DNA of 64,000 nt from Alphaproteobacteria bacterium (lineage in GTDB: Bacteria > Pseudomonadota > Alphaproteobacteria > Sphingomonadales > Sphingomonadaceae), in NCBI GenBank assembly GCA_030424845.1, contig JAUHWC010000001.1:1-64000 (forward strand), read 5' to 3'. Within the stretch, counting starts at the first letter, position 1. Every line of letters begins with the position of its first letter. Made by a program: the position numbers and the translations under genes. The notes beneath the pieces were generated by a model. It was not told the DNA's origin and did no database searches. It worked only from the letters and a program-made list of their open reading frames with translations. Of this stretch, positions 16,620 through 21,273 are shown piece after piece.

Positions 16620-16690
16620 GGCGTGAAGCCCTTATCGCTTATTGCGCGCACGGCAAGGCCTGTGCGCCGAATTCAACTGTCGTCTGGAGG

Positions 16691-16751
16691 AAGAAAACCC
16701 TTAGGCGGGTTGCCCGTGCGCCGCGCGCAGGGCCTTTGCCACGCCTAAGGG
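16691..16751 (-). terminator. Leucine attenuator terminator upstream of leuA
   Basis: On the minus strand CCCTTAGGCG (16742-16751) and CGCCTAAGGG (16698-16707) form a perfect 10-bp stem followed by TTTTCTT. Inside the loop a second stem forms (GCCC.TGCGC with GCGCA.CGGGC, one bulge, GCG loop), giving one long hairpin. The left arm overlaps the stop region of the Leu-rich leader peptide, which is the geometry of ribosome-mediated attenuation. Confidence 0.85.
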
Positions 16752-16804
16752 CGTGTAAGTCGAAGCAGCGATAGGATCGTGCGACTGTGCATGGTGAGCA
16801 GCAT
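16745..16804 (-). CDS. leuL: leuA leader peptide (19 aa, six leucines)
   Basis: The minus strand encodes MLLTMHSRTILSLLRLTRP, with Leu codons CTG, CTC, CTA, CTG, CTT and CTT, six in 19 residues and four within six codons. The stop codon lies inside the left arm of the attenuator stem at 16742-16751. An in-frame TAA just upstream limits the frame to this start, or to the internal ATG at 16792 (15 aa). The ribosome site is weak. When charged Leu-tRNA is scarce, a ribosome stalled on the Leu codons should prevent the terminator from forming; this is inferred from known attenuators. Too short for ordinary gene finding. Confidence 0.8.
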   Translation of the reverse strand: MLLTMHSRTILSLLRLTRP

Positions 16805-16840
16805 ATGGGCACATGCTTAACGAAAGTCTAGCCCGCGCAT

Positions 16841-16882
16841 AAAGAAAGCGCGCGGCACCGCCTGGATGCCGCGCGCTTCTTC
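16841..16882 (-). terminator. Intrinsic terminator after the yceI gene
   Basis: The minus strand reads a GC-rich stem GAAGCGCGCGGCA / TGCCGCGCGCTTTC with a short loop and TTTCTTT tail. It closes the YceI gene (stop at 16906) and separates it from the leuA leader. Confidence 0.75.
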
Positions 16883-16905
16883 AAGCGGATTATCGCCGCG
16901 AGGTC

Positions 16906-17544
16906 TTACTTTTCGAATGCGACCGAGATTTCCAGCGGCACCTGGTCCGGGATGCCGAAGGGGATGCCGAAGCTTACACCGAACTGCGAGCGGGTGATGG
17001 TGGCCGTGCCGTGGAAGCCCAGCGTCGCCTTCTGGTTCATCGGGTTGTTGCCGAGGCCCGAAAGTTCGGCGTGGATCTTAACCGAATGGGTTTCGCCGTT
17101 CATGGTCAGGTTGCCCATGATCTCGGCCGTGGTGTCGCCGGTGGAATGCACCATGGTGGACACGAAGCGTGCGGGTTCGGGATCCGGACCCCAGAAATCG
17201 GGAGCACCGCCGTTTGCGCCGGCGCGGAAGAAGTGATCCTTCAGGCCTTGGCTCGGCACCACCACCGAAGAGATCGGAATGGTCACGTCCACGGAGGAGT
17301 TCGAGATGTTGTCGACATCCAGTTCCAGCGTGCCGGAAACATCGCCGAAGATCCCGAAATAGTCGTTGAAGCCAAGGTGGCTGACGCTCCAGCTGACCAT
17401 CGAATGGCCGGCATCGGCGACATAGGTGCCCGATTCAACGGAGCTGGTGTCGAGCGCGGGTGCGCCACCCTGGGCGTTGAGTGCGCCGAAGGTGAGTGCG
17501 GTGACGCCAGCGGCACCGGCAATGGTCAGGACAGTCTTGCGCAT
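16906..17544 (-). CDS. YceI family periplasmic protein
   Basis: The 212-residue protein starts with a signal peptide (MRKTVLTIAGAAGVTALTFGALNAQ) followed by the YceI lipocalin-like barrel. The usual features are present: YVADAGHSMVSWSVSHLGF near the N-terminus, the VDVTIPISSV strand, DFWGPDPEPARFVSTMVHS and the ending FGVSFGIPFG...PLEISVAFE. YceI proteins bind polyisoprenoid/isoprenoid-type lipids in the periplasm; the exact ligand here is unknown. ATG 17544 has GGGAG eight bases upstream. It forms its own unit between the ilvC terminator (17677-17710) and its own terminator. Confidence 0.9.
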   Translation of the reverse strand: MRKTVLTIAGAAGVTALTFGALNAQGGAPALDTSSVESGTYVADAGHSMVSWSVSHLGFNDYFGIFGDVSGTLELDVDNISNSSVDVTIPISSVVVPSQGLKDHFFRAGANGGAPDFWGPDPEPARFVSTMVHSTGDTTAEIMGNLTMNGETHSVKIHAELSGLGNNPMNQKATLGFHGTATITRSQFGVSFGIPFGIPDQVPLEISVAFEK

Positions 17545-17676
17545 TGAGGGGTCTCCCATTGGATAAACTTCGCCGCGCAATGTGGCGAGCGAAGGTGCTA
17601 ATGTCTAGCATTCGCGGTGGTTGATACGAGAAGTTACAATTTCGGCAGATACGTCCAAAGGGGGGCGTTGTTTTAC

Positions 17677-17735: not shown

Positions 17736-18844
<1,109 letters not shown>

Positions 18845-18846
<2 letters not shown>

Positions 18847-18891
18847 CAAAAGAACCGGTTCCGCCTGAAACAGGCGCATTTGCAACCGGTT
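18845..18891 (-). terminator. Terminator after ilvN
   Basis: On the minus strand AACCGGTT (18884-18891) pairs with AACCGGTT (18853-18860), with an inner stem CGCCTG-TTT-CAGGCG, followed by CTTTTGTT. It ends the ilvB-ilvN unit and directly abuts the ilvC -35 element. Confidence 0.75.
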
Positions 18892-18907
18892 TGGCGCGCC
18901 GTCCGGA

Positions 18908-19423
18908 TCAGGCCGGCTCGGCCCCGCGCATCATGCCGACGATGCCGGTGCGGCCGACTTCGACGAGCCCCAGTTCGCGCATCAGGGCGATGAAGCTGTC
19001 GATCTTGTCGGGTGGCCCGGTGATCTCGAAAACGAAGCTCTCCGTCGTGGTGTCGACCGGGCGTGCGCGGAAGATATCCGCCAGTCGCAGCGCTTCCACG
19101 CGCTTTTCACCGGTTCCTGCCACTTTCACCAGCGCCAGCTCGCGTTCCACATGCGGGCCGGCCTGGGTCAGGTCCACCACCTTGTGTACCGGTACGAGGC
19201 GTTCGAGCTGTGCCTCGATCTGGTCGATCACCTCCGGCGGACCGTTGGTGACGATGGTGATGCGGCTGACCGAGTGGTTCTCGGCAATGTCGGCCACGGT
19301 CAGGCTGTCGATATTGTAGCCGCGCGCGGTGAATAGGCCGGCGATCTTGGCAAGGATGCCTGCCTCGTTGTCGACGGTGATCGCCAGGACGTGGCGTTCG
19401 GATTCCCTGTGCTGGATTTTCAT
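18908..19423 (-). CDS. ilvN: Acetolactate synthase small (regulatory) subunit
   Basis: The 171-residue protein has the N-terminal ACT domain (HVLAITVDNEAGILAKIAGLFTARGYNIDSLTV) and the C-terminal small-subunit domain, the normal layout for IlvH/IlvN. It binds IlvB and gives valine feedback sensitivity. The ATG at 19423 shares its A with the ilvB stop (TGATG), so the two subunits are translationally coupled. Stops at 18908 and is followed by a hairpin terminator. Confidence 0.96.
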   Translation of the reverse strand: MKIQHRESERHVLAITVDNEAGILAKIAGLFTARGYNIDSLTVADIAENHSVSRITIVTNGPPEVIDQIEAQLERLVPVHKVVDLTQAGPHVERELALVKVAGTGEKRVEALRLADIFRARPVDTTTESFVFEITGPPDKIDSFIALMRELGLVEVGRTGIVGMMRGAEPA

Positions 19424-21165
19424 CACACCAGTGCCTTTGCTTCGTCTTCCATGGTTCCGGCGTGCTGGTCGCCATAGAGCAGCATTTCGGTATGCGCCGC
19501 GCCCGAGGGGATCATCGGGAAGCAGTTGGCTTCCTTCGACACCTGGCAATCGACGATCACCGGGCCGTCATGCTCCATCATCGCGATGATCCCGGCATCG
19601 AGATCGGCCTCGTCGGTAATGCGGATACCCTTCCAGCCATAGGCCTCCGCCAGCTTCACGAAATCGGGCAGGCTGTCGGAATAGCTGTTGGAGTAGCGGC
19701 TTTCATAGGTCAGTTCCTGCCACTGGCGGACCATGCCCATGTATTCGTTGTTGAGGATGAACACCTTCACCGGCAGGCGGAACTGGCTGGCGGTGCCCAG
19801 TTCCTGGATGTTCATCTGGATCGATGCCTCGCCGGCCACGTCGATCACCAGCGAATCCGGGTTGCCCAGTTGCGCACCGATGGCGGCGGGCAGGCCATAG
19901 CCCATCGTGCCGAGACCGCCTGAGGTGAGCCACTTGTTGGGCCCCATGAAGCCGAAATACTGTGCCGCCCACATCTGGTGCTGGCCAACTTCGGTGGTGA
20001 TGATGGGGTCCTTGTCGCGGGTGAGGGCGAACAGCCGCTCGATTGCAAGCTGCGGCATGATCTCGTCATCGCGGGCCGGGTAGGCCAGGCTTTCGCGCGC
20101 ACGCCAGCTCTCGATCCGGGCCTTCCATTCGCCCAGTTCCAGCTTCTGGCGCTTGCCCCAGGCCTCGATCAACTGTTCGAGCACGGTCGCGCAATCGCCG
20201 ACGATGCCGAGGTCCACCGGCACCACCTTGTTGATGCTGGAACGGTCGATATCGATGTGGATCTTCTTCGATCCCGGCGAGAATGCGTCAAGGCGGCCGG
20301 TCACGCGGTCATCGAAGCGCGCGCCGATGTTCACCATCACGTCGCACTGGTTCATCGCCATGTTGGCTTCCAGCGTGCCGTGCATGCCCAGCATGCCAAG
20401 CCAGTCGGGATGATCGGCAGGGAAGGCACCAAGGCCCATCAGCGTCGAGGTGACCGGCGCGCCCGTCAATTCCTGCAACTTGCGCAACAGCTCGGTGGCA
20501 CGCGGCCCGGAATTGATCACGCCGCCACCGGTGTAGAAGATCGGTGCCTTGGCGTTGGCGATCATGTCCACGGCCTCGCCGATCTCGTCCGCGGCGGCAA
20601 CCGTGCGCGGGTGATAGCGCCTGGGACGCTGCACCGGCCCATCGGGCAGCAGTGCGGTGGCGACCTGGACGTTCTTGGGAATGTCGATCACGACCGGCCC
20701 CGGGCGACCGGTGGTGGCGATCTCGAAAGCCTCTTCCACCGTGGCGGCCAGCTCATTGGGGTCCTTCACCAGGTAGTTGTGCTTGGTGCAGTGGCGGGTC
20801 AGGCCGACGGTGTCCGCTTCCTGGAAGGCATCGGTGCCGATCAGGTTGGTTGCCACCTGGCCGGTGATCACCACCAGCGGAATGGAATCGAGGAAAGCAT
20901 CGGCAATGCCCGTGAGCGCGTTGGTCGCGCCGGGGCCGGACGTGACGAGCACCACGCCCGGCTTGCCGGTGGAGCGGGCATAGCCTTCGGCCGCGTGGGC
21001 AGCGCCGGCCTCGTGGCGCACGAGGATATGGCGGATGCGATCATCCGAGAACAACTCGTCGTAAATCGGCAGAACGGCACCACCGGGATAGCCGAAGACG
21101 AATTCGACCCCCTGTCGCACCAGTGTTTCGCACAAGATGGCAGCGCCGCTGCGTTCCTCAGTCAC
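19423..21165 (-). CDS. ilvB: Acetolactate synthase large (catalytic) subunit
   Basis: This 580-residue thiamine-diphosphate enzyme has the catalytic Glu in [17 protein letters not shown], the FAD-binding middle domain, and the TPP motif [11 protein letters not shown]...[10 protein letters not shown]...NN, where GE replaces the commoner GD as in other alphaproteobacterial enzymes. It makes acetolactate from pyruvate. The GTG at 21165 with GGAGAAGG just upstream is the likely start; the frame is open 25 codons further. Its leader contains a 12-bp hairpin (21211-21238) and a promoter-proximal palindrome (21283-21300). Confidence 0.96.
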
Positions 21166-21210
21166 TTTTACCTTCTCCCGGAATGGCCGGTCGTTTGCCG
21201 GAAAATGATT

Positions 21211-21238
21211 GACCCGGCACGATTGCTCGCGCCGGGTC
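21211..21238 (-). other. 12-bp perfect hairpin with GCAA tetraloop in the ilvB leader
   Basis: On the minus strand GACCCGGCGCGA pairs fully (one G.U) with TCGTGCCGGGTC across a GCAA loop of the GNRA class. It is followed by AATCATTTTCC, only a weak U tract. It lies about 45 bp before the ilvB start codon and could act as an attenuator or a protein/RNA binding hairpin. Confidence 0.55.
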
Positions 21239-21273
21239 ACTCCTGCCCAACTGGAAAACTCGATGTGGGCGCC

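Follow-up and report, generated by a model that had tools for sequence, protein, structure and literature searches.

What does a short leucine-rich reading frame that runs into a strong hairpin upstream of leuA do for the expression of this gene? The locus lies in a 64,000-nucleotide stretch (hereafter, the window) of a Sphingomonadaceae genome, with leuA and its leader on the minus strand (Table 1). In the first-pass annotation, it was described as a leucine attenuator in which a 19-codon Leu-rich frame ends inside one arm of a perfect terminator stem. Direct reading of the minus strand bears out a Leu-rich frame upstream of leuA that ends within the 5' arm of the stem denoted P2, and the stem itself is indeed perfect over 10 bp and is followed by TTTTCTT.

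Table 1. Coordinates of the leuA leader features in the window, in the order of transcription
Feature	Positions	Strand	Basis and remarks
Putative promoter: TAGACT (16830-16825), 17-nt spacer, CATATG (16807-16802)	16802..16830	-	Sequence; candidate site
Leader ORF, MHSRTILSLLRLTRP and stop, probably leaderless	16745..16792	-	Conserved ATG position; leaderless from promoter position
P1a, 5' strand, CCTATCGCT (Leu codons)	16767..16775	-	Own folds; pairs with 16639-16630
CTT CGA CTT (Leu-Arg-Leu) core	16757..16765	-	First base of second CTT (16759) is 8 nt before P2 5' arm
P1b, 5' strand, TTCGACT	16758..16764	-	Three own folds; partner strand 16678-16672
P2' local hairpin, CACGCC-CTTA-GGCGTG	16740..16755	-	Covariation, 57 sequences; mutually exclusive with P2
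P2, 5' arm, CCCTTAGGCG, holds stop TAG 16747-16745	16742..16751	-	Covariation, 57 sequences
P3, inner hairpin enclosed by P2	16712..16733	-	Own minimum-energy fold; sequence varies in relatives
P2, 3' arm, CGCCTAAGGG	16698..16707	-	Covariation
U-run TTTTCTT after P2	16691..16697	-	Present in window, not conserved
P1b, 3' strand, AGTTGAA	16672..16678	-	Three own folds
P1a, 3' strand, AGCGATAAGG, likely leuA Shine-Dalgarno AAGG	16630..16639	-	Own folds; Shine-Dalgarno assignment predicted
leuA, 2-isopropylmalate synthase, 560 aa	14937..16619	-	TIGR00970, 825 bits (cut-off 697); TIGR00970/PRK03739

If the locus is a leader of this kind, the Leu-codon cluster and the stem are expected to recur in relatives, as the first-pass annotation had anticipated, and both do. 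This LeuA is encoded, at E 1e-150 or better, in 92 of the 149 genomes of the family; upstream regions were fetched for 80 of these 92, and all 80 carry the element, 78 by a core pattern that allows up to 6 substitutions in 27, and two (L074 and L081) by a covariance model, R1, built without these two loci. The pattern is also present in 29 of 30 loci collected by DNA likeness (window included), a collection biased towards the element. These 29 loci and the 78 found through the LeuA protein make up the set of 107 leaders used below, from which three loci missed by the pattern (L009, L074 and L081) were left out; R1 recovers the latter two.

The extent of the leader frame differs from the first description. 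Read from ATG 16804, the frame gives MLLTMHSRTILSLLRLTRP, with six Leu codons and the stop TAG at 16747-16745, but an ATG at this place occurs in only 15 of the 107 leaders and in 6 of the 26 of the genus set, to which the window belongs. ATG 16804 was rejected as the leader start because it is not conserved; it also overlaps the putative -10 box. The conserved start is ATG 16792, which yields a frame of 15 codons, and an ATG 7-9 codons before the CTN-CTN-CGA core is present in 98 of the 107 leaders. In the window, the putative promoter ends 9 nt before this ATG, and because of the promoter position relative to the conserved start, the leader is probably leaderless. In the ATG-anchored profile of 105 of the 107 leaders, there are weak promoter-like signals at about -36 to -31 and -13 to -11 and no Shine-Dalgarno signal upstream of the ATG. 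The TAGACT-17-CATATG arrangement is absent from the promoter list of the pattern tool, where the sole promoter-like site is 16916-16889. In Caulobacter, 375 leaderless mRNAs have been reported (PMC4117421).

Leucine makes up, on average, 28% of the residues in the 107 leaders, compared with 9.3% in 54 ORFs of the window. The family core reads CTN CTN CGA CTT AYN CGC CCY TRG, without indels between the CTT and P2 under the pattern, which allows substitutions only. The peptide mostly ends in LRLTRP-stop or, where TAG is changed to TGG and the stop comes two codons further on, in LRLTRPWA-stop, so that the stop codon falls within the P2 arm in 68 of the 107 leaders and just past it in the other 39. 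Across these leaders, the Leu codons are kept, with the exact number of Leu codons and the flanking codons being variable, and in the family the synonymous positions of CGA CTT AYN CGC are constrained. Between the Leu codons, nearly all family leaders have the Arg codon CGA, and in several loci of other families a Leu codon takes its place. CGA is a rare codon in the 54 ORFs of the window, with 4% of the Arg codons, as is CTA, with 1% of the Leu codons. One natural variant (L009) has lost three codons and with them CTT CGA CTT; P2 and the frame are kept, with CTG at the fixed position.

The leader is strongly folded: the region 16792-16690 reaches -46.1 kcal/mol, with none of 200 shuffled sequences as good (z -3.7). 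Covariation in 57 non-redundant sequences points to two helices that share bases and hence exclude each other. P2 is paired in 98.6% of the cells and has 32 double-change cells, compared with 9.2 in shuffles, and P2' is paired in 96.8% and has 23, compared with 2.2; in both cases none of 500 shuffles gave as high a count, with the reservations that these shuffles leave the relatedness among the sequences in place and that the double changes of P2' are confined to two of its six pairs. Two weaker measures separate the helices less well from the shuffles: the observed number of pairs with a double change was reached by 16 of 500 shuffles for P2 and 110 of 500 for P2', and the observed number of further pair types by 149 and 88 of 500, respectively. 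When the arms are slid, pairing drops to 26-61% for P2 and 20-48% for P2'. Whole-leader consensus folds recover P2 in all four subsets of sequences, and a class-wide sample of 35 sequences has 97.4% of the P2 cells paired.

The element extends well beyond the family. At E 0.1, there is an R1 match in 153 of the 246 genomes searched from the order and in 52 of the 240 from the class. Loci were fetched for 20 of these hits (19 from the class, one from the order), and in each the element stands before a leuA of the other type (TIGR00973, with FDTTLRDGEQ or a close variant); endings such as CTT AYN CGC CCC TGA are found among them. A leuA of this other type is present in 76 of 152 genomes of the class sample. 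Of 78 places, the 30 with the best scores, which are not a random draw, were searched upstream: 23 have a sense-strand R1 match at E 0.05, one has the core pattern, three match the second model, R2 (E 9e-6, 0.018 and 0.032), and three have no match to R1, the core pattern or R2. A pattern scan of species genomes found at least 119 loci; among the matches listed, 115 are followed within less than 900 nt by a leuA of one or the other type, and the remaining four are truncated by the end of the locus. The titles of these listed matches are alphaproteobacterial or simply 'Proteobacteria', with the exception of L187, a metagenome-assembled genome titled Actinobacteria bacterium whose element resembles that of Novosphingobium (L166); this is probably a misnamed or mixed bin. 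Among 299 genomes of the phylum, 58 have an R2 match at E 0.01; the class accounts for 55 of these matches, and the three outside it are weak. In the genome of the window, a search of both strands with R1 at E 0.1 gives no copy other than this one. In six loci from other alphaproteobacteria (L128, L136, L137, L138, L139 and L141), two leader-like Leu-Arg-Leu cores stand in tandem upstream of leuA, about 140-190 nt apart, at about 1130-1390 in leuA orientation.

Against Rfam release 15 at the gathering score, the window gives only a tRNA elsewhere and eight relatives give nothing. We found no report of the element in Alphaproteobacteria in the openly licensed PMC literature searched; the work on attenuation by Vitreschak (2004) and Lopatovskaya (2010) might hold a prior description. 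The element appears to be a widely conserved, testable candidate RNA for leucine control in Alphaproteobacteria, with no Rfam match and a reading frame so short that it is easily overlooked.

Over the set, the codons of the leader are complementary to the start region of leuA, as in the LEU element, which Seliverstov et al. (2005, PMC1262725) described as a leuA leader of most Actinobacteria with pairing between its Leu codons and the Shine-Dalgarno box of leuA. In the 107 loci, the mean energy of the duplexes between leaders and their own leuA start regions is -19.05, compared with -16.12 (sd 0.30) for permuted partners, the lowest of 2000 permutations being -17.03; a leader's own start region ranks 33rd (median) among 106 others. 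Relative to dinucleotide shuffles, the mean z is -1.21, with 85 of the 107 duplexes below 0. A larger collection was obtained by adding pattern and model hits, after dropping 24 hits, which were cut off or did not pass a stricter search for a leuA motif, and one duplicate; codon counts in this collection are partly built in by the search pattern. With shuffled start regions, its 168 TIGR00970-type loci give a mean z of -1.19 (44 below -2), compared with +0.37 (2 of 168 below -2) for a control placed in leuA codons; its 42 TIGR00973-type loci give -0.62 (5 of 42 below -2), compared with +0.18 (0 of 42) for the control. A 43-nt upstream control pairs with the leader as well as the start region does (-19.8 versus -19.0).

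The specific pairing P1 appears in folds of the window's own sequence, where the P1a strands CCTATCGCT and AGCGATAAGG form 9 bp with one bulged base in two of three folds and 7 bp in the third. In this locus alone, the duplex between the leader and the leuA start is no better than that of shuffled sequence (z about 0). Of the four consensus-fold subsets, P1 appears in one, which consists of 17 loci chosen for GTCGAA in the start region, a motif that favors P1. Folding under a ribosome mask was tried as support for a translational output and set aside as weak over the set and contrary at the window locus. In the window, the accessibility of the leuA start falls at every Leu stall tried, from 0.62 to 0.45, 0.47 and 0.49, and to 0.33 at the fixed CTT. 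Among the 107 leaders, accessibility rises by more than 0.1 in 43, 32, 27 and 17 (the last for the fixed CTT) and falls in 7, 9, 6 and 19, respectively, so that rises outnumber falls when the stall is placed before the fixed CTT and not when it is placed at the CTT itself.

We consider it slightly better than an even bet that the element is a leucine-sensing, ribosome-controlled leuA leader RNA that works like the LEU element, with P2 as the OFF state and with the translation of leuA as the main output. The 15-codon, probably leaderless leader would be translated. When leucine is plentiful, the ribosome would reach the stop codon inside P2 and leave, P2 would re-form, and P2 and P1 together would tie the Leu-codon stretch to the translation start of leuA, keeping its expression low. 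In a shortage of charged tRNA-Leu, the ribosome would stall on the Leu codons and leuA would be expressed: in a stall on the fixed CTT, the front edge of the ribosome would cover part of the P2 5' arm, and in a stall further upstream, P2' would be free to form in place of P2, and P1 would be blocked. According to PMC4833913, ribosome coverage extends about 12 nt past the codon. A ribosome whose A site holds the fixed CTT would cover about half of the P2 5' arm, which would make P2 the OFF state and a stall the ON state whether the output is translational or terminational.

The main competitor, which we regard as rather unlikely, is transcription attenuation as proposed in the first-pass annotation: P2 and the U-run would be an intrinsic terminator, and a stall on the Leu codons would prevent termination. 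P2' as antiterminator could do the same; neither this competing hairpin nor the complementarity between leader and leuA start had been noticed in that annotation. In favor of termination, the locus in the window has a 10-bp stem, a strong fold, a TTTTCTT tail and a terminator-like site (16711-16696) listed by the pattern tool, and P2', a competing helix that does covary, would make a classical antiterminator. The tail, present in the window, is not conserved in relatives, even though P2 itself is conserved: TTTT within 10 nt after P2 is found in 8 of the 107 leaders and in 2 of the 26 of the genus set, namely, the window and its best DNA match (L003), and at least four T in the 8 nt after P2 are found in 15 of the 107. 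As a decisive argument against termination, the missing U-run is weakened by a crude control: a search of 191 convergent gene ends yielded 49 strong hairpins, of which only 12 show four or more T in 8 nt. Since these control hairpins mostly lack a U-run, and given the site at 16711-16696, intrinsic termination retains part of its probability. The position of the stop codon counts against it. In a classical attenuator, the terminating ribosome does not hold the terminator stem open; here, with the stop codon within or just past the P2 5' arm, it would. Termination also leaves the complementarity between the leader and the leuA start unexplained. Occlusion of the leuA start is favored over termination because of this set-wide complementarity, the non-conserved U-run and the analogy to the LEU element, a preference that rests on the set; at the window's own locus, where shuffled sequences form an equally good duplex and the modeled stalls make the leuA start less accessible, the output can equally be read as translational or terminational.

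Rho-dependent attenuation, with P2 or the ribosome deciding whether Rho can reach the RNA between P2 and leuA, would do without a U-run, and in several relatives this stretch is, by eye, C-rich and G-poor; yet a ribosome stalled upstream would not alone shield it, and we consider this mechanism improbable. A regulatory protein that binds the structured leader was the proposal favored for Actinobacteria by the authors of the LEU study (PMC1262725), and the constraint on synonymous positions in CGA CTT AYN CGC would agree with it; however, the retention of Leu codons while their number and flanks vary, and the replacement of CGA by Leu codons, fit codon reading better, which makes a protein a very improbable regulator here. 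An action in trans of the leader RNA or peptide, with control in cis being secondary, is similarly far-fetched: the leader looks leaderless and is close in size to the 14-aa peTrpL of the rnTrpL/peTrpL system of Sinorhizobium (PMC10117765), but it adjoins leuA in all 115 uncut pattern loci among the matches listed.

Among known systems, the classical leu and trp attenuators of proteobacteria share with this element a leader rich in Leu, in the case of leu, and competing helices near the stop codon, and differ in that here there is no conserved U-run, the stop lies in or just past the 5' arm, and the leader is complementary to the start region of the structural gene. In translational attenuation of the erm type, a ribosome stalled on the leader frees a downstream start region, as it would here, the signal there being an antibiotic rather than an amino acid. 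The trpL/rnTrpL leader of Sinorhizobium meliloti, another alphaproteobacterium, also precedes a biosynthesis gene and is short and leaderless, as the leader here probably is, but it responds to Trp, is a transcription attenuator and has a role in trans (PMC10117765).

The closest parallel is the LEU element itself, for which a pseudoknot or alternative hairpin has also been described (PMC1262725). According to the same source, mutants of the Streptomyces coelicolor leuA leader do not fit classical attenuation, and its authors considered both this mechanism and direct ligand binding by a riboswitch unlikely when they proposed a regulatory protein. Both elements lie upstream of leuA and have a leader ORF with a run of Leu codons, and neither would need a terminator. 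Complementarity of the Leu run to the leuA Shine-Dalgarno region and alternative structures would be further shared features: over the set, the pairing exceeds that of permuted and shuffled partners, and in the window it is present in own folds with z about 0; of the alternative structures, the hairpins P2 and P2' covary. Two actinobacterial leaders read CTT CTT CTT AGC TGC CGC (L312) and CTC CTT CTT AGC TGC CGC (L311), and an alphaproteobacterial one (L151) reads CTT CTT AGC TGC CCC TAG. In both L312 (GCCGCGACGAG/CTCGTCGCGGC) and L311, a long hairpin follows the Leu codons, its arm at about the same spacing from CTT as in Alphaproteobacteria, and GAAGAAG precedes leuA in L312. R2, which was built without Actinobacteria, weakly matches L312 and L311 at the expected place (E 0.0043 and 0.005, respectively; these E-values are rough). 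R1 does not match L311 or L312, R2 does not match a Streptomyces plasmid copy (L317), and the LEU base stem is absent from the minimum-energy folds of L311 and L312. The alphaproteobacterial form differs in having Leu-Arg-Leu (CTN CGA CTT) or Leu-Leu-Leu, in usually ending, within the P2 arm or just after it, with Leu-x-x-Pro-stop (or ..PWA-stop), and in that it has P2', is probably leaderless and precedes both types of leuA; the register of the base stem varies.

We regard homology of the alphaproteobacterial element and the LEU element as likely. The broader proposal, for which we see somewhat less than an even chance, is that of a single ancient family of leucine-sensing leader RNAs in Actinobacteria and Alphaproteobacteria, which would have been kept with leuA despite the exchange of the enzyme between TIGR00970 and TIGR00973, and in which a starved ribosome would free the leuA start through two mutually exclusive helices at the leader stop. 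If the link to the LEU element is real, the alphaproteobacterial loci could serve as models for the mode of action that PMC1262725 leaves undecided for Actinobacteria.

Other leuA leaders have a different form of Leu run. The leaders of S. meliloti (L313), Rhizobium leguminosarum (L318) and Cupriavidus (L319) encode LLLLGL(I/T)RGCRV.. and LLLSLPIGCRA, and R2 matches none of them; the fold of the S. meliloti leader shows the Leu run paired to GAAGAGAAG, which stands before leuA, and this speaks for a LEU-like arrangement.

Upstream of leuA in the window, the minus-strand ORFs in 17736-21240 read, by eye from their translations, as ilvC, ilvN and ilvB, with a YceI-family gene (16906-17580, minus strand) standing between them and leuA. 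Right after the YceI-family gene, at 16841-16889, there is a GC-rich hairpin with a T-rich tail, which is probably the terminator of this gene and would separate it from the leuA unit.
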